Source: Gammaproteobacteria bacterium | GTDB lineage: Bacteria; Pseudomonadota; Gammaproteobacteria; Pseudomonadales; Porticoccaceae | Direction of reading: 5' to 3' | DNA length: 64,000 nucleotides | Assembly (NCBI GenBank): GCA_018069465.1 | Contig: JAGPUW010000025.1 | Span: 434,001 to 498,000 of the forward strand | In this document: positions 35,626 through 41,943 of the stretch, piece after piece | How the letters are laid out: every line of letters begins with the position of its first letter | How positions within the stretch are numbered: the stretch's first letter is position 1 | Translations under genes and position numbers: made by a program | Notes under the pieces: model-generated | The model's input: the letters and a program-made list of their open reading frames with translations, nothing else | Told to the model about the DNA's origin: nothing | The model's database searches: none

Positions 35626-36438
35626 ATGACAAACCCCACAGCGCAGAGCGAACGCCACCCCGACGGACAAATCAGCACCGAAGTACGCGGCAATATTTTT
35701 TTAATCGGCATTGATCGCGCCGAAAAATACAACGGCTTTACGCCTAAAATGTTTGCCGAGCTGGCCGATGCCTACGCCGAACTAGAAAACAATGATGAGC
35801 TTTGGGTCGGTGTACTTTTCGCCCACGGCAAAAACTTTACCGCCGGTCTCGACCTGCCAAAATTTGCCGATGCCATGAAAAAAGGCGAGGCCATCTTGCC
35901 AACCAATGGCATTGATCCCTTTTCACTGCAAGCCCCCTTTCGCACCAAGCCCATCGTCGCGGCAATGAACGGCATCTGCTACACCGCTGCCATTGAGTTG
36001 ATGCTGGCGACGGAGATTGTTGTCTCGGCCAGAAGTGCCCGCTATTCCCAGCTTGAAGTGGGGCGCGGAGTCATGGCTGCCGCCGGTGCCACCTTCCGCA
36101 TGGTTGAACGCGCGGGCTGGGGCAACGCCATGAAAGTACTGCTAACGGGTTATGTGTTCGATGCCGAAGAGGCGCTGCGCTACAATTTTATTCAGGAAAT
36201 TGTCGACGATGGCGAAGAGTTTAATCGCGCCCTGGAACTGGCCGAAGAAATTGCCAAACAAGCCCCACTGGCCGTACAAGCCACATTAAAAAGCTCGCGC
36301 GCTTATTATTTCGACAGCCCCAAAGCGGCAGTTGATGAATTTATCCCGGTGATGCAAGCACTCGCCAACACCGAAGATGCCGCCGAAGGCGTACAGTCCT
36401 TTATTGAAAAACGCCCGCCGGTTTATACCGGTAAATAG
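35626..36438 (+). CDS. Enoyl-CoA hydratase/isomerase family protein
   Basis: A 270-residue crotonase. Oxyanion-hole segments GKNFTAGLDLPKFADAM and AMNGICYTAAIELMLATEIV are visible, and both acidic positions are kept (Glu in IELML and Glu in QLEVGRG). It is therefore a plausible hydratase or isomerase, in contrast to its upstream neighbour, from which it is clearly diverged. Substrate unknown. AAAGGAC precedes the ATG by 8-9 bases. An FNR-type site lies just beyond its stop and probably belongs to the next gene. Confidence 0.88.
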   Translation: MTNPTAQSERHPDGQISTEVRGNIFLIGIDRAEKYNGFTPKMFAELADAYAELENNDELWVGVLFAHGKNFTAGLDLPKFADAMKKGEAILPTNGIDPFSLQAPFRTKPIVAAMNGICYTAAIELMLATEIVVSARSARYSQLEVGRGVMAAAGATFRMVERAGWGNAMKVLLTGYVFDAEEALRYNFIQEIVDDGEEFNRALELAEEIAKQAPLAVQATLKSSRAYYFDSPKAAVDEFIPVMQALANTEDAAEGVQSFIEKRPPVYTGK

Positions 36439-36451
36439 CTAAGGCTGGCGA

Positions 36452-36465
36452 TTGATAATTATCAC
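36452..36465 (+). promoter_or_regulatory. Candidate FNR/Anr box upstream of cytochrome c
   Basis: TTGATAATTATCAC matches the FNR consensus TTGAT-N4-ATCAA at nine of ten fixed positions. It is 114 bp before the cytochrome start. A site centred at 36458.5 and acting at -41.5 would put transcription start near 36500, with TAGCAT at 36488-36493 as a possible -10 box. A GC hairpin (36506-36528) would then lie in the leader. Confidence 0.6.
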
Positions 36466-36505
36466 TGACCTGTGCCAGATACTGACTTAGCATGTAGAGG
36501 TATCA

Positions 36506-36528
36506 ACAGGCCCTGAGAACGGGCCTGT
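36506..36528. other. GC-rich hairpin between crotonase and cytochrome c genes
   Basis: ACAGGCCC (36506-36513) pairs perfectly with GGGCCTGT (36521-36528) around a 7-base loop. No T-run follows on the plus strand, only TAAAAAC, so it may be a weak terminator of the crotonase transcript or a leader structure of the cytochrome mRNA. Confidence 0.55.
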
Positions 36529-36578
36529 AAAAACGGGGAGTGGCCATTTAGCCCCATCCAATGAGGAGATCAGATAAG

Positions 36579-37088
36579 ATGAAAACCCCTATAAAAACCA
36601 TTATCACCCTTGCGGCTTTATCAGCGGCCGGCCAGCTTTATGCCAGTGAACAGGCTAATTCAGCGGCAGATCAAGCTAATAGCACAGCCAAAACCCTGTT
36701 TGAAAATAACTGCCTGAGCTGCCATCAGCCTCACAAAGGTGGCAAGGGAAAGCATGCGGAAAAAGGCTCGGATGGGGGCAAGCAAGCTCATGGTGATGGC
36801 GGCCACCCTAAACGTCTCGCGCCACCCATGGCGATGGTGAAAAAGCATTATCTGCAAAGCTACCCAGATAGAGAGCAATTTATAGAAAAAGTGTCCGCCT
36901 GGGTAAAAGCCCCTGACGCCAGTACCGCGAAGCTCCATCATGCCGTTGAAAAATTTGGCGTGATGCCGCCGCAAGCCATTGATGCGGCAAGTCGCCAGCA
37001 AATTGCAGGCTATATTTACGATGTTTTGCCTTCAGGGCATGGCAAGAAGGACGGCGACAAACCCTGTAAAAAGGGTGGTAGCCACTAG
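36579..37088 (+). CDS. Periplasmic single-heme cytochrome c
   Basis: A 169-residue protein with a signal peptide (MKTPIKTIITLAALSAAGQ, cleavage near LYASEQ) and one heme-binding motif C-L-S-C-H (about residue 45). A Met in KFGVMPPQAID is the probable distal ligand and AGYIYDVLPS the C-terminal helix, so it is a class I cytochrome c. Between the heme motif and the fold there is a His/Gly/Lys-rich insert (about 50-75), and the tail is also Lys/Gly/His-rich; these could bind metal. ATG 36579 follows AGGAG by about 10 bases. An FNR-type site upstream suggests expression under low oxygen. The partner oxidase or reductase is not in the window. Confidence 0.85.
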   Translation: MKTPIKTIITLAALSAAGQLYASEQANSAADQANSTAKTLFENNCLSCHQPHKGGKGKHAEKGSDGGKQAHGDGGHPKRLAPPMAMVKKHYLQSYPDREQFIEKVSAWVKAPDASTAKLHHAVEKFGVMPPQAIDAASRQQIAGYIYDVLPSGHGKKDGDKPCKKGGSH

Positions 37089-37119
37089 CAGGCTGTTAAA
37101 GTCACGCAATAATTTATAA

Positions 37120-37236
37120 GCATTTTCCCGTAATAGCTGAGTTCGATAATATTGAACTCAGCTATTACGTCTATCCATTAACAGCATTCACCTCTGCCCA
37201 AGCAAGCGGCTAAACTCAACCCGCCCAACCCTCAGC
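37120..37236. repeat. Left copy of ~115-bp direct repeat
   Basis: Bases 37120-37198 match 40560-40638 with six mismatches. A less exact part follows that still encodes, on the minus strand, E-G-W-A-G-stop, the same C-terminus as the SnoaL-like gene at 40650. It contains a perfect inverted repeat (arms 37130-37144 and 37154-37168). This copy is a relic of a second 3' end of that gene. Confidence 0.85.
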
Positions 37237-37254
37237 AGATAACTGAAGCGTAAT

Positions 37255-37999
37255 TTGTGGTGTGGCAAACATTATTACATCACTGGCACAGAGCAGTTAT
37301 ATGCTTGGCGCATGCAGCAGCGCGCCCAGCGATACCGATTAAAACCCCCAGAGATACGAGCGCATGTGCATCAGAAGTTGGGTATTAGTTGGACACCTGA
37401 GTTAATAGCCAGACGACTCAAAGCCTTCTCACCCAAAGATTACGTGTGCCATCAGTCCATTTATCAGTACATCTACAAAAAGCACCCGAACTCATCGCTT
37501 GCCTGGCCAGGAAGCACGTGAAACGGCGCACTAAAATTCCTTATCGAAAGCGCGTTGAACGCATTAAAAACAGGGTTTCAAGCGCACTGCGCGCCACAAA
37601 ATATTGAGGCACGAGAAACCGTAGGCTACTAGGTAAGTGACTCGGTGGTGGGGATCGATAGGCAGGCAGGATTAAACGTAGTGATAGAGCGGGCAAGCCG
37701 TTTAGCGAGCATCTCATTGATGGCCAATAAAACAGCGAAAGCAACAAAAACAGCTATTGTTCGGCGTTTATCAAAGTACCCCGCCAGGCTCGTTCGAAGT
37801 ATTACCTATGAGAGCCAGCCCCACGTAATGCTTTGGATACAATGGCTCCGAAAATGTCTTGCACAACGAAATTAATGAGGTCAATGCTAGCGATATCAAT
37901 CGAGTTGAAAAACCACTCAACAATCGGCCAAGAAAATATTTGAATTACCAAACACCTTACGAAGTGTTTCGACAGGCTTGTGGTGCACTTACTTATTGA
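37255..37999 (+). mobile_element. Decayed IS30-family transposase
   Basis: Pieces of an IS30-type transposase in order, but in different frames. The N-terminal HTH-like part reads ISWTPELIARRLKAFSP and VCHQSIYQYIYKKHP (37255-37521). After frame changes comes the DDE-domain part (VVGIDRQAGLNVVIERASR, then ARLVRSITYE, around 37645-37815). The C-terminus is LNNRPRKYLNYQTPYEVFRQ to the stop at 37997-37999. The stretch between the second catalytic block and the C-terminus is deleted, and several stops interrupt it, so it cannot be active. The 5' end and terminal inverted repeats were not identified. Confidence 0.85.
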
Positions 38000-38019
38000 A
38001 TGTGGAATTTTGGTGACAC

Positions 38020-38033
38020 TTGATCAAAGTCAA
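38020..38033 (+). promoter_or_regulatory. Candidate FNR/Anr box
   Basis: TTGATCAAAGTCAA has both half-sites TTGA and TCAA with the standard six-base spacing and matches Anr-type sites. It is 84 bp before the dead signal-peptide ORF at 38117. A further TTGATCAAGG follows at 38097. It may be left over from a gene that arrived with its oxygen-responsive promoter. Confidence 0.5.
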
Positions 38034-38116
38034 ATAGTAGCTCCCTGAATGCGTGTACAAATATATGACAACATCATCGCGTGTGGCGGCCTTACTTTGA
38101 TCAAGGGGGGAGAAAC

Positions 38117-38218
38117 CTGAAGACAAGTACTTGTCTATCGCTGCTAGCTGGGGTTGTGCTGATGCTGACCCTGCAGCAGGCCTTCGCGGGTGGATCCGAA
38201 GTCATCGACAAGTTGTGA
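38117..38218 (+). pseudogene. Truncated signal-peptide ORF (gene relic)
   Basis: CTG at 38117, with GGGGGGAG 5-12 bases before it, opens a 33-codon frame. It reads LKTSTCLSLLAGVVLMLTL then QQAFAGGSEVIDKL and a TGA. The first 24 residues are a good signal peptide with an AFA cleavage site. The frame stays coding-like for about 20 codons after the stop (ADQDGHAESGLTKASADR). It looks like the 5' end of a secreted-protein gene, probably with a mutated ATG, a stop mutation and a lost 3' end. The parent family is not recognised. Confidence 0.55.
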
Positions 38219-38273
38219 GCCGATCAGGACGGTCACGCTGAATCCGGATTAACGAAAGCATCTGCCGATAGAC

Positions 38274-38347
38274 GGTGGTTACTAAACAAAAAAAATAGAG
38301 TACAAATAGAAGGCGGTTACTAAACAAAAAAGGGAGTATAAATTAAT
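38274..38347. repeat. Imperfect ~38-bp tandem duplication at the start of the exported-protein gene
   Basis: Unit 1 (38274-38311) and unit 2 (38312-38347) both begin GG[T/C]GGTTACTAAACAAAAAA and go on to AGAGTACAAAT or GGAGTATAAAT. Unit 2 contains the ribosome-binding site (GGGAG) and start codon of the next gene; unit 1 carries a degraded version. Confidence 0.8.
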
Positions 38348-40391
38348 GAATATTAAAAATATTTTAGTGTTTGGAGTGGGAGCGTTAGGGCTGGTTTCTG
38401 GCCTTACTCAGGCAGGCAAGATTACCTCGGGGCCAAGTGCCAGTGAGGCGCCTAATGCTCCTGAATTTGTCGCAGAAGGTTTTGGTGGCTGGAATCTTGA
38501 TAACGTTAAGATCATTCTGAATGAAAGTAACTTGGATGACGGCGATAATAGTTCCTTTGAGCCAAGTGATGGCTCCTATTACTTTTCACCTGATGCAGAC
38601 TTTACTTATCAAGGTAATGTGGGTGATGGTTTCGGTCCGATTATGGGTTACGTGTTAGCCAAAGACTGGCCGGTGGGCGAGCCCTCAGGCATCAAGATTG
38701 TCAATGATGACCTGCTGGTTAAAGAGCCAAAACCTCAAAACTGCATCATGGCAACCTCATATCTAGAAGATCATTTTCTGGATTCAACAGACCCGCAGCA
38801 AGTTCTCTGCAGTGGTCCTTTCCAAAGTCATAAGCGTTATAAACTGGCTATGCTACCGTCAACGGTTGTCGATGGTGCTGGTTTAGAAAAAGGTATTGAT
38901 CTTGTTTTTAATGTTGAAGCTGACGGCGGGTCACGTGATTACCAGGTCTTCCAGAAAATCAATAACTGGACGGATGGCCGTTTAGAAGGTTTCACTATTC
39001 AGGTCGGATTTGGTATTGGCAACGACTTTGTACTTGCATCAGAAGCTGAAGGTGTGGGTGTTGCAAACCTGAGTCTGTCTGTGCCAGCAGCAATCTGGAC
39101 ACCTAATCAGTTAGCTAACTTTTCTGCCGGCTTATTTGGTCCAGCCGACCCCAAGCATGATCGACCACCCGGTTTCTACGATATGACAACAGGTGCCGGC
39201 TTCGAGATTGTAGAGTATCCTAATCTGAGTGCTCAAACTGATACTCTCACTTCAGGGGCTACCCTGGGGAGCGACTATGCAGAGGTTCCCGCAGGTGCAA
39301 GCAATCAGTTCGGCCCCTGGCTGCCAAATACTATGCTACCTAGTGGTGTTTTCTGGGATGATGATGGCAACCCCGAAACAGATGCACAACTGTTGGCCTG
39401 GTATGGTTGGAACCCAAACCTTACGACTCCCGCTCTAGGCTGGATGGCCGGTGCAGCCGATGGCTTCGCTGAAGTTCCAGCGGCTACAATTACTGGCTGG
39501 GGTGAAAATCTTGAGTTTACCCAAGATGTCATTGATGACCTGGTCAATGTCGGTTTAAATTATGTTGTGACTATTGGTGATGTGACTAGCTTTACTGGTA
39601 ATACCTTTACCATTCGGATCACGCCTAAAACTGAATCGGGTGTAACTCCACCACCACCTTATGTTGTAGACGGAGAAACGGTAACCCCCGTCCCTAGCCT
39701 TGAGTTTGTAAGTTCTGACGGCGTGGTTGCAGTCTCCCCCGAACCAGAATTTGTAAAAGGTTCGCTGTTAACGGCACGTGTGGGTGATGCGGATCTAAAC
39801 CTGGATCCGGAAGCCATTGATGAAGTGGATGTCACTATTAGCGCTACTGGACTCAGTGATGAAGTAATAACGCTGTTCGAACAAGGTGAGAACCGCGGTG
39901 TATTCGCGGCAACCTTGCCTGAAGCGTTCAGTAACGTTCCGGTGGATACAGTTGTCACGGTAACTTATACCGACGTGATTGATGGCTCTGATCTAGATAA
40001 ACATGCAGAGACAATAGCAACGGATGAAATATTGCCTCCTCCCCCCGCTGCAATTATATCAATTGATAATTTCACTGCACCGGCTAGTCTGTTTGTCGGT
40101 CAAACCGGAAAGTTAAGTGTCACTGTCTTGAATGCTAAAGATTCAGAAGCAACAGTTTCCGGAACAGTTATCATCGCAGCCAATGGCGTAGAAATTTACA
40201 GTGAAGGCTTCACTGATTTGTCGCCTAACAAAAAAGACAGAATATCGACTCGGTGGACAGCGCCAGATGAAACGGACGTGTTATGGACGGCCACGGTGAT
40301 AATTGATAGTGAAGTCGTTGCCGAAAATACAGCTTTTACTACGGTTTCGGTGAAACCAGATAAGAGTAATAATAACGGAAATAATAAATAG
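38346..40391 (+). CDS. Large exported protein, possible choice-of-anchor F type, inside the island
   Basis: A 681-residue secreted protein. Residues 1-23 form a signal peptide (ILVFGVGALGLVSGLTQA). The N-terminal domain starts FGGWNLDNVKIILNES, a pattern I associate with the choice-of-anchor F family (from memory, moderate certainty). At about 455-565 a beta-rich module has VGDADLNLDPEAIDEVDV and LFEQGENRGVFAATLPEAF, like repeats of bacterial surface proteins. At about 575-670 a CARDB/Ig-like module follows, then an Asn/Lys tail. No LPXTG, PEP-CTERM or transmembrane anchor is seen at the C-terminus. It is richer in A+T and uses GTT, GGT and GAT codons far more than its neighbours, so it was probably acquired. 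GGGAG precedes the ATG and a strong terminator follows. Function unknown; surface or extracellular binding is a guess. Confidence 0.8.
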   Translation: MNIKNILVFGVGALGLVSGLTQAGKITSGPSASEAPNAPEFVAEGFGGWNLDNVKIILNESNLDDGDNSSFEPSDGSYYFSPDADFTYQGNVGDGFGPIMGYVLAKDWPVGEPSGIKIVNDDLLVKEPKPQNCIMATSYLEDHFLDSTDPQQVLCSGPFQSHKRYKLAMLPSTVVDGAGLEKGIDLVFNVEADGGSRDYQVFQKINNWTDGRLEGFTIQVGFGIGNDFVLASEAEGVGVANLSLSVPAAIWTPNQLANFSAGLFGPADPKHDRPPGFYDMTTGAGFEIVEYPNLSAQTDTLTSGATLGSDYAEVPAGASNQFGPWLPNTMLPSGVFWDDDGNPETDAQLLAWYGWNPNLTTPALGWMAGAADGFAEVPAATITGWGENLEFTQDVIDDLVNVGLNYVVTIGDVTSFTGNTFTIRITPKTESGVTPPPPYVVDGETVTPVPSLEFVSSDGVVAVSPEPEFVKGSLLTARVGDADLNLDPEAIDEVDVTISATGLSDEVITLFEQGENRGVFAATLPEAFSNVPVDTVVTVTYTDVIDGSDLDKHAETIATDEILPPPPAAIISIDNFTAPASLFVGQTGKLSVTVLNAKDSEATVSGTVIIAANGVEIYSEGFTDLSPNKKDRISTRWTAPDETDVLWTATVIIDSEVVAENTAFTTVSVKPDKSNNNGNNK

Positions 40392-40426
40392 CTGAGTTTT
40401 CCGTTAAAAGCAAAAGACGTGTTATA

Positions 40427-40455
40427 GGGGGAAGCTCATGGCTTCCCCCTTTTTT
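40427..40455 (+). terminator. Rho-independent terminator of the exported-protein gene
   Basis: A 9-bp perfect stem (GGGGGAAGC at 40427-40435, GCTTCCCCC at 40441-40449) with a 5-base loop is followed by six T. It lies 36 bp after the stop codon. Confidence 0.95.
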
Positions 40456-40491
40456 ATGTTTAATTCTCTTGGAGGAATCGGGGTGGGGGTT

Positions 40492-40545
40492 TACCAAACA
40501 CCCTAAGAGGTGTTCCAACAGGCTTACGGTGCACTTGCAGATTGA
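40492..40545 (+). mobile_element. 3' remnant of a second IS30-family transposase
   Basis: These 54 bases read Y-Q-T-P-stop-E-V-F-Q-Q-A-Y-G-A-L-A-D-stop, the same C-terminus as the IS30 relic ending at 37999, at 43 of 54 identical bases. The divergence shows it is a different IS copy and not a duplicate of the first. Nothing else of the element remains. Confidence 0.75.
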
Positions 40546-40559
40546 ATGCAGGACTCGGG

Positions 40560-40671
40560 CATTTTCCCGTAATAGCTGAGTTCGATAATTTTGAATTCAG
40601 CAATTGCGTCTATCCATTAACAGTATTCACCTCAGCCCGTGTGGCAAGCTCAACCAGCCCAACCCTCGGCA
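40560..40671. repeat. Right copy of ~115-bp direct repeat (3' end of SnoaL-like gene)
   Basis: This copy comprises the last codons of the minus-strand SnoaL-like gene and its downstream hairpin region. Its hairpin arms have three mismatches, whereas those of the left copy at 37130-37168 are perfect. Confidence 0.85.
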
Positions 40672-41084
40672 AGCGGCACCCAGTGGTAGAGCTCAAAATC
40701 GCGCCGCGCAAATTTCCACTCACCGTTAACGCGCCGATACATATCATCGTAATGACCACAGGCTGTGAAGGCCTTGCCCTCTTCAATCAGACGAATTTCC
40801 ACGGCGCAGTTCCCCGTAGCCGTATCGCCATCAACCTCAATTACGTGGTTTTGGATAAAGGGTTTAGGGCCAACCTCTTCAATTTTATCGCGATATAACT
40901 GCGCTAATTGCTCCTTGCCGCGAAAATCAAACTGTGGTGGCATATGAAATTCGCCATCATCGGTAAACATATTGAGTAGGGCTTGAGAATCTTGCCTCAC
41001 CACTGCGTAGCAGTACTTTGCCGTCAATTCGCGAATGGCGTCTTTGTCTTCAAGCACTTGTATGCGCGCTTCTAAATTCGTCAC
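40650..41084 (-). CDS. SnoaL/NTF2-like family protein
   Basis: A 144-residue cone-shaped NTF2-fold protein. It opens LEARIQVLEDKDAIRELTAKYC, typical of SnoaL_4/SnoaL-like proteins. The segments MFTDDGEFHMPP and GNCAVEIRLIEEG plus FARRDFELYHWVPL follow the family pattern. Members are isomerases, dehydratases or small ligand-binding proteins in steroid, aromatic and polyketide metabolism. The catalytic residues and substrate cannot be fixed. It is the first intact gene right of the IS30-bracketed region, and its 3' end is the sequence that is repeated at 37120-37236. Confidence 0.85.
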   Translation of the reverse strand: MTNLEARIQVLEDKDAIRELTAKYCYAVVRQDSQALLNMFTDDGEFHMPPQFDFRGKEQLAQLYRDKIEEVGPKPFIQNHVIEVDGDTATGNCAVEIRLIEEGKAFTACGHYDDMYRRVNGEWKFARRDFELYHWVPLAEGWAG

Positions 41085-41316
41085 TGTTTATTCCTTTTAT
41101 TATTTTTTTAAAGGCCCATAGTAACCACAACGGGCTTAACTCGCATAGTAGTATACTGAGGCATCCGGGTTTATTATCTAGCCATTATCGATCGAGAAGC
41201 CCTTTGTGCAGGCTATAAATAAAGCTTTTCTAGCGGGAACGTTTTAGCAAAGCGCCCATCAAACTTGAAGCAGTCAACTTGGCAGGCATCCATTGAATAA
41301 GGCAGGGGAACAACTT

Positions 41317-41943
41317 ATGAGCGATCGGCTTCAACAAACACTGGCGCGAATCTTCGTTATTCTTGCGCTGTGCTGCGCAATAACGCCGCCACTGCACGCG
41401 GAAGACAAGACCCAGCAAGCCATTTTTGCCGGTGGTTGTTTCTGGTGTATGGAGCCGCCCTTCGATGCACTGGAGGGTGTTATTTCAACCACCTCGGGTT
41501 ATATCGGCGGCACGGTAGCCGAGCCAACCTATAAGCAAGTATCCAGCGGCACGACGGGGCATACCGAGGCCTTAAAAATTATCTACGACCCCGAAAAAAT
41601 TACTTACGAGAAACTACTGGCGACCTTTTGGGAAAATATTGATCCGGTCGATCTGGGCGGACAATTCTGCGACCGAGGCAGCCAGTACCGCAGTGAGATT
41701 TTTTACAGTAGCGATCAACAACGCGACTTGGCAAAAAAGAGTAAGCAGCAGCTCGATGCGAGCGATGTGCTACCCGCGCCTGTGCAGACAGCGGTCAGTG
41801 CAGCCAGCGCCTTCTATCCCGCCGAGGACTACCACCAGAACTACTATCAAAAGAACCCCAAGCGCTACAAGTTTTACAGCTGGAACTGTGGCCGCAAACA
41901 ACGCCTGCTACTGCTTTGGGGCAAGCCCTACGACCAGCATTAA
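41317..41943 (+). CDS. msrA: Periplasmic peptide-methionine (S)-S-oxide reductase MsrA
   Basis: A 208-residue MsrA. It has a signal peptide (IFVILALCCAITPPLHA, cleavage near residue 31) and the active site GGCFWCMEPPFDALEGV. The family segments GYIGGTVAEPTYKQVSSG-TTGHTEA, FWENIDPVDLGGQFCDRGSQYR and FYPAEDYHQNYY are all present. It repairs oxidised methionine in exported proteins. There is no MsrB domain. AGGGG precedes the ATG at 41317; the in-frame TTG at 41293 lacks such a signal. It is convergent with uspE. Confidence 0.94.
   Translation: MSDRLQQTLARIFVILALCCAITPPLHAEDKTQQAIFAGGCFWCMEPPFDALEGVISTTSGYIGGTVAEPTYKQVSSGTTGHTEALKIIYDPEKITYEKLLATFWENIDPVDLGGQFCDRGSQYRSEIFYSSDQQRDLAKKSKQQLDASDVLPAPVQTAVSAASAFYPAEDYHQNYYQKNPKRYKFYSWNCGRKQRLLLLWGKPYDQH

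Follow-up and report, generated by a model that had tools for sequence, protein, structure and literature searches.

How a stretch of foreign DNA came to lie between two convergent genes, with the end of one of them present at both of its borders, is the question raised by a locus in the genome of a gammaproteobacterium of the family Porticoccaceae. The genome is a draft of 49 contigs (3.6 Mb, 97.6% complete), and the window, i.e., the whole stretch of DNA that was analyzed, comprised 64 kb (bases 434001 to 498000 of contig C21); positions are those of the window unless another locus is named. This lineage carries a foreign stretch of ∼3.3 kb between a gene for a small cytochrome c-like protein (36561 to 37088, + strand), whose matches to cytochrome c were below the cutoff, and an intact SnoaL-like gene (SnoaL_4 in Pfam; 40650 to 41084, − strand). 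The insert contains the remnants of two IS30-family transposase genes and an intact open reading frame (ORF) for a probable exported protein of the choice-of-anchor F family, and it is bounded by the two copies of a direct repeat, designated R. The best explanation, in which we place moderate confidence, is that DNA of a relative with the insert beside R was added to the chromosome, with a homologous exchange in R at one border and an illegitimate join at the other.

Empty sites in relatives and the composition of the insert

The locus was compared between the host genome (G000) and six congeners (G001 to G006, of which G002 is only 82% complete), with the ECH gene (35626 to 36438) as the outer left landmark and the MsrA gene (41293 to 41943) as the outer right landmark. 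The ECH-MsrA locus was kept in five congeners (G001, G003, G004, G005, and G006), none of which carried the insert, and no close ECH match was detected in G002. The gene order was ECH, cytochrome c, hairpin, SnoaL pseudogene, and MsrA in G003 and ECH, cytochrome c, SnoaL remnant (a 78-column match at 74%), and MsrA in G004. ECH was followed by a hairpin, an intact SnoaL gene, and MsrA in both G005 and G006, and MsrA lay close behind ECH in G001; the compared stretches of these three genomes had no match to the cytochrome c gene. Folding of the spacers of G003, G005, and G006 revealed one hairpin each (z, −4.4 to −5.7), quite different in sequence, and nothing comparable was seen in the spacers of G004 and G001. 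Because the relatives have cytochrome c and SnoaL as neighbors across one spacer, these comparisons indicated that the insert was gained. An empty site joining the two genes had been named in a preliminary description of the window as support for insertion, and such a site was present in G003, with one hairpin spacer before the SnoaL pseudogene. The converse expectation, that of an ordinary old locus shared by all relatives, was not borne out, as no congener had the insert.

The distribution and composition of the exported-protein gene pointed in the same direction. The gene was absent from all six congeners and was matched in 2 of the 112 genomes of the family sample, namely, the host and G029, i.e., in 1 of the 111 others. 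Its GC content (0.468; z, −2.2) and its GC content at third codon positions (GC3) (0.391; z, −3.4) were both the lowest among the 46 ORFs of the window, and its codon score (−0.060) was the second lowest. This agreed with an earlier description of a large exported-protein gene of different composition; that the protein is exported is our judgment by eye from its N terminus. The further claim that the insert is the only clearly foreign part of the window mostly held, with the reservation that an ORF at 1049 to 1825 (− strand; 258 amino acids, no Pfam match) scored at least as low in codon usage (−0.068, the lowest of the 46). Overall, the five empty sites, the absence of the exported-protein gene from the six congeners, and its composition give good support to the view that a foreign insert was gained.

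The interval between ECH and MsrA (35626 to 41943 in the window) is variable in the genus, with cytochrome c and SnoaL each coming and going. Five kinds of content were present in six genomes: the interval was empty in one, SnoaL stood alone in two, and cytochrome c was accompanied by a SnoaL remnant, by a SnoaL pseudogene, or by the insert and SnoaL in one each. Long hairpins with no evident T-run were observed 3′ of gene ends at 37129 to 37169 in the window and at 1393 to 1455, 1425 to 1495, and 1380 to 1450 of loci L006, L007, and L014, respectively; their sequences varied by species and the long stem was retained. The hairpin may recruit IS30-type elements or break-prone recombination, and targeting of extragenic palindromes by insertion sequences (IS) has been reported elsewhere (PMC1525189). 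That foreign DNA has repeatedly docked at the hairpin spacer is nevertheless an unlikely proposition.

Anatomy of the repeat and of the IS30 remnants

The left copy of R (R1; 37120 to 37237) holds a long hairpin (37129 to 37169) together with the tip of a SnoaL-like gene on the − strand, namely, its final six codons and its stop (AEGWAG-stop). The right copy (R2; 40559 to 40671) is made up of a weaker hairpin and the 3′ end of the living SnoaL-like gene. The preliminary description had recognized a direct repeat of ∼115 bp, and full alignment in direct orientation established that it is real; the copies, 113 to 118 bp long, agree at 101 of 113 aligned bases, with 12 mismatches, and 5 columns are gaps. 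The edges required correction, as the left copy extends to 37237 and the right copy starts at 40559, and the tip of SnoaL kept in R1 comprises six codons rather than five residues. The assignment of R2 to the living gene end was upheld, and the gene is intact from 41084 to 40650. Identity was 93% between 37120 to 37199 and 40559 to 40638 (6 mismatches) and 88% between 37212 to 37237 and 40646 to 40671. None of the differences between the copies fell in the first 31 columns and all 14 changes lay further on, a distribution with a P value of about 0.01 if changes were uniform, in a comparison made post hoc.

The local score between R1 and R2 was 81.5, and the best other match of R1 in the window, on either strand, scored 14.0. 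When the repeat was sought elsewhere, as had been recommended, a search of all 49 contigs detected R at two places only (E values of 5e-58 and 8e-32); two extra matches were the same palindromes on the opposite strand. The hairpin of R1 folded at −27.8 kcal/mol (z, −8.9) and that of R2 at −22.5 kcal/mol (z, −4.7). A role of the R hairpin as a convergent terminator was considered but found no support, as it has no T-run and was not listed in a terminator scan of 36400 to 41400. No Rfam family was detected in the same region at E values of up to 1 or across the window at gathering scores.

Directly adjacent to R1 lies a dead IS30-family transposase gene (IS30-L; 37238 to 38004, + strand), which has three in-frame stops and one frameshift, as expected from its earlier description as broken, and a right end at about 38002 to 38004. 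It matched the IS30 transposase model at 87 bits (cutoff, 80) in a genome search that read through the three stops, and its separate ORF pieces scored below the cutoff. The reference was a full-length Pseudoalteromonas relative of 333 codons. The BLAST alignment to this relative began at codon 31, and the first 12 aligned codons correspond to an opposite-strand reading of the SnoaL end; judged by the alignment, true IS30 sequence would start where R1 ends, at about codon 43. At the opposite border, the tail of another IS30 transposase had been reported, and a second copy in the same orientation (IS30-R; 40491 to 40548, + strand) proved to be represented there by its last 58 bp, with about 10 bp between its right end and the left edge of R2. 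Neither copy is an intact element with both ends, as IS30-L starts at about codon 43 and IS30-R is limited to 58 bp, and across the IS30 remnants only right ends were visible, no left end of IS30-L being seen.

The same IS30-family element has left a third remnant on contig C47 (locus L038, about 1433 to 1565; 27.5 bits, below the cutoff), adjoined by a candidate remnant of another transposase. Comparison of the 58-bp right ends detected 48 identical bases between IS30-L and IS30-R, 49 between IS30-L and the C47 copy, and 51 between IS30-R and the C47 copy. As the three copies are about equally distant, IS30-L and IS30-R do not resemble a recent duplicate pair. An 88-amino-acid fragment of the left copy was absent from all six congeners, had two weak matches when the 109 other genomes of the family sample were all searched, and matched two plasmid records, both at 40% identity.

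Origin of the insert

R1 ends inside the SnoaL gene where the headless IS30 begins, and so one join accounts for both truncations. The preliminary description had set a tandem duplication that included the IS elements beside a second reading, an insert that arrived by recombination with a second gene end. The second fits the anatomy best, because a homologous exchange and an illegitimate join explain the two borders, and the first is retained at lower confidence. In the preferred reading, an IS30-flanked cargo would have landed just beside the spacer hairpin of a related donor strain, and a donor fragment comprising a truncated IS30, the cargo, an IS30 end, R, and the SnoaL end would then have entered the cell. 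On one side, homologous exchange would have taken place in R and SnoaL, and on the other side an illegitimate join would have linked SnoaL at codon ∼138 to IS30 at codon ∼43. The route could have been a single crossover by a trimmed and recircularized fragment or, alternatively, homology-facilitated illegitimate recombination (HFIR). The product would have been the recipient's R beside cytochrome c (R1), a gene tip fused to the headless IS30, and a complete R and SnoaL on the right. The repeat would then be a by-product of additive recombination and neither a target-site duplication nor a working part of a transposon.

The locus shows the pattern of additive single-crossover or HFIR events, with a homologous direct duplication, one illegitimate border, and a gene that is whole on the other side. 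A lacZ assay in Escherichia coli provides a parallel: linear DNA with a gene 3′ end at one end gave a duplication-diagnostic PCR product in 56 of 60 clones, and 14 sequenced clones had gene-end duplications of 109 to 950 bp, ascribed to trimming, recircularization, and single crossover, with the remaining 4 of the 60 appearing to be HFIR (PMC3240628). The two systems are alike in that the insert is bounded by a duplication of a gene 3′ end (here 113 to 118 bp) and in that one border is homologous and the other illegitimate. They differ in that the present case is natural, old, and decayed, that its cargo is IS30-flanked DNA and not a plasmid, and that the neighboring gene is intact.

If R1 is native, it might be expected to be the copy closer to the spacers of relatives, and R1 scored above R2 against all three (22.5 versus 8.5, 4.5 versus 2.0, and 12.0 versus 9.5). 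This closeness and the change-free first 31 columns would agree with R1 being the native copy and R2 an imported or mosaic one, neither of them strongly.

Several points weigh against a donor-derived insert. No donor sequence was found and the donor state is inferred, and the insert is carried by one genome only, itself a draft of 49 contigs. The divergence between R1 and R2 could equally have built up after a duplication in situ. The ∼10 bp on the left of R2 differ from the left flank of R1, and no source of these bases was found. True HFIR is reported to be very rare in E. coli (PMC3240628). Column counts over the three relatives gave a small excess, with six states shared with R1 and five with R2 (nine undecided), and the counts for G006 alone, 12 columns for R1 and 3 for R2 with 5 undecided, depend partly on one indel. 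Furthermore, the SnoaL gene shows no sign of import, with 92% protein identity to that of G006. Identity at 4-fold sites in comparison to G006 was 41% for SnoaL, 41% for the Usp gene, and 62% for ECH, with MsrA left out.

A possible, if rather doubtful, alternative is unequal exchange or tandem duplication in situ, in which an IS30-flanked cargo transposed beside R in this lineage and an exchange between sister chromosomes, either illegitimate or from IS30 to IS30, placed a second R and SnoaL end on the left with loss of the IS30 left end. The final anatomy would be the same, no donor would be necessary, and IS30 copies in direct orientation can undergo dimer formation, deletion, and other rearrangements (PMC9333248). 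However, more events are required, the IS30 tails of the insert (48 of 58 bases identical, versus 49 and 51 in comparison with C47) are unlike those of recent duplicates of one element, and the closeness of R1 to the spacers of relatives, weak as it is, is not predicted.

Integrases that target gene ends leave the whole gene on one side and a duplicated tip on the other. The R copies present this pattern and could be taken as the attachment sites left by an integrative element, now decayed, that was aimed at the SnoaL gene end and has lost its integrase, an explanation which we consider improbable. No integrase was detected among the insert proteins scanned (a set that did not include every small ORF), a 21-base exact piece of R had no match in the viral contigs, the left border lies inside the IS30 transposase and not at an element end, and no tRNA gene is present in the 64-kb window.

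An old native locus that the relatives have lost would account for the intact exported-protein gene and for the age of the IS30 copies, but it is very improbable in view of the absence of the insert from 6 of 6 congeners and from 110 of 111 other family genomes, its foreign composition, and the single hairpin spacer in each of G003, G005, and G006. A plain IS30 composite transposon with the long direct repeats as its target-site duplication is the least probable of all: the insert resembles such a transposon in having a foreign gene between two IS30-family remnants of the same orientation but both copies are dead, the left one has no left end and so R1 adjoins no IS end, the right one is 58 bp long, and R, at 113 to 118 bp, is too long to be a target-site duplication of an element described as attacking the target strands at a 2-bp distance (PMC9333248). 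The preferred explanation, a donor fragment added by exchange and join, leaves room for the cargo itself to have originated as a composite transposon.

The choice-of-anchor F gene

The cargo begins with a leader (38005 to 38345, + strand) that comprises a signal-peptide-like stub and a 26-bp near-repeat. The stub, recognized by eye, has about 33 codons (about 38117 to 38218) with signal-peptide-like residues and no ATG at its start. The near-repeat (38268 to 38293 and 38306 to 38331; 92% identity, spacing of 38 bp) lies directly upstream of the start codon of the choice-of-anchor F gene and is possibly a duplicated promoter or ribosome-binding region. No second copy of the stretch from 38003 to 38345 was present in the host genome.

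The gene itself (38346 to 40391, + strand) is an intact ORF for a 681-amino-acid protein, which matched the NCBIfam choice-of-anchor F model (NF033657) at 255.5 bits (cutoff, 50). The match spans residues 105 to 426 and positions 4 to 307 of the 307 in the model, i.e., the whole model, as in other members of the family; there was no Pfam match above the cutoff. The N terminus resembles a signal peptide by eye, and on these sequence features the product is probably an exported or surface protein, with its function assigned at the family level. As the family name implies, a recognized C-terminal surface anchor would be expected. The C terminus of this protein has a basic tail only, and no anchor domain was detected by Pfam or NCBIfam. 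A hairpin with a T-run, resembling an intrinsic terminator, lies 3′ of the gene (40426 to 40456, + strand); the terminator scan of the region found 3 sites versus 5.1 expected in shuffled sequences, and this hairpin is not significant alone.

Homologues with 54% to 59% identity were found in Malonomonas rubra, two Halioglobus records, Thiobacillus, and Thiohalobacter, together with a piece at a contig end, and no obvious common neighbor was present among their listed flanking ORFs. The proteins compared (L051 to L055) have a conserved body and differing ends. A CARDB-like region (below the cutoff) and a short basic tail are common to the proteins of the host, Malonomonas, Thiobacillus, and Thiohalobacter, whereas the C-terminal region of the Halioglobus type differs, the two Halioglobus homologues ending in a stretch that Pfam assigns, in two members, to thrombospondin type 3 repeats. 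Matches to the 681-amino-acid protein were detected in 11 of 369 genomes of the class sample, the host included; in seven of them the match was confined to residues 434 to 632, which lie beyond the family domain or at its edge, and in three genomes other than the host it covered that domain. Choice-of-anchor F was present in none of eight candidate stretches of viral contigs. A structure prediction from seven sequences was poor (mean pLDDT, 43), and no solved structure matched the alignment at E values of up to 0.1.

In the preferred account, decay affected the IS30 copies and the exported-protein gene remained open. Survival of the ORF was estimated with frameshifts set at 5% of substitutions and on the presumption that the divergence of R arose after insertion, which the best explanation does not need. 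At 5% divergence per copy, the probability of no stop in 681 codons was 0.05, or 0.0003 with frameshifts included; at 1% divergence, the corresponding values were 0.55 and 0.20. As the estimate rests on postinsertion divergence of R, it is weak evidence for selection. With this weak support, the ORF has probably stayed open because the gene is used, while the IS30 copies decayed.

The locus is most favorably viewed as a new instance of known processes, in which a probable exported-protein gene was acquired horizontally along with IS30 remnants and a gene end was duplicated by recombination. It offers a natural case, with empty sites in relatives, of foreign DNA entering a chromosome with no gene broken, probably through a homologous exchange and an illegitimate join. 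Scars of this kind, in which a gene end is duplicated, can be mistaken for the target duplications of transposons or for attachment sites. A literature search on "choice-of-anchor F" found no paper, and the gene that has survived in this insert belongs to a little-studied family.

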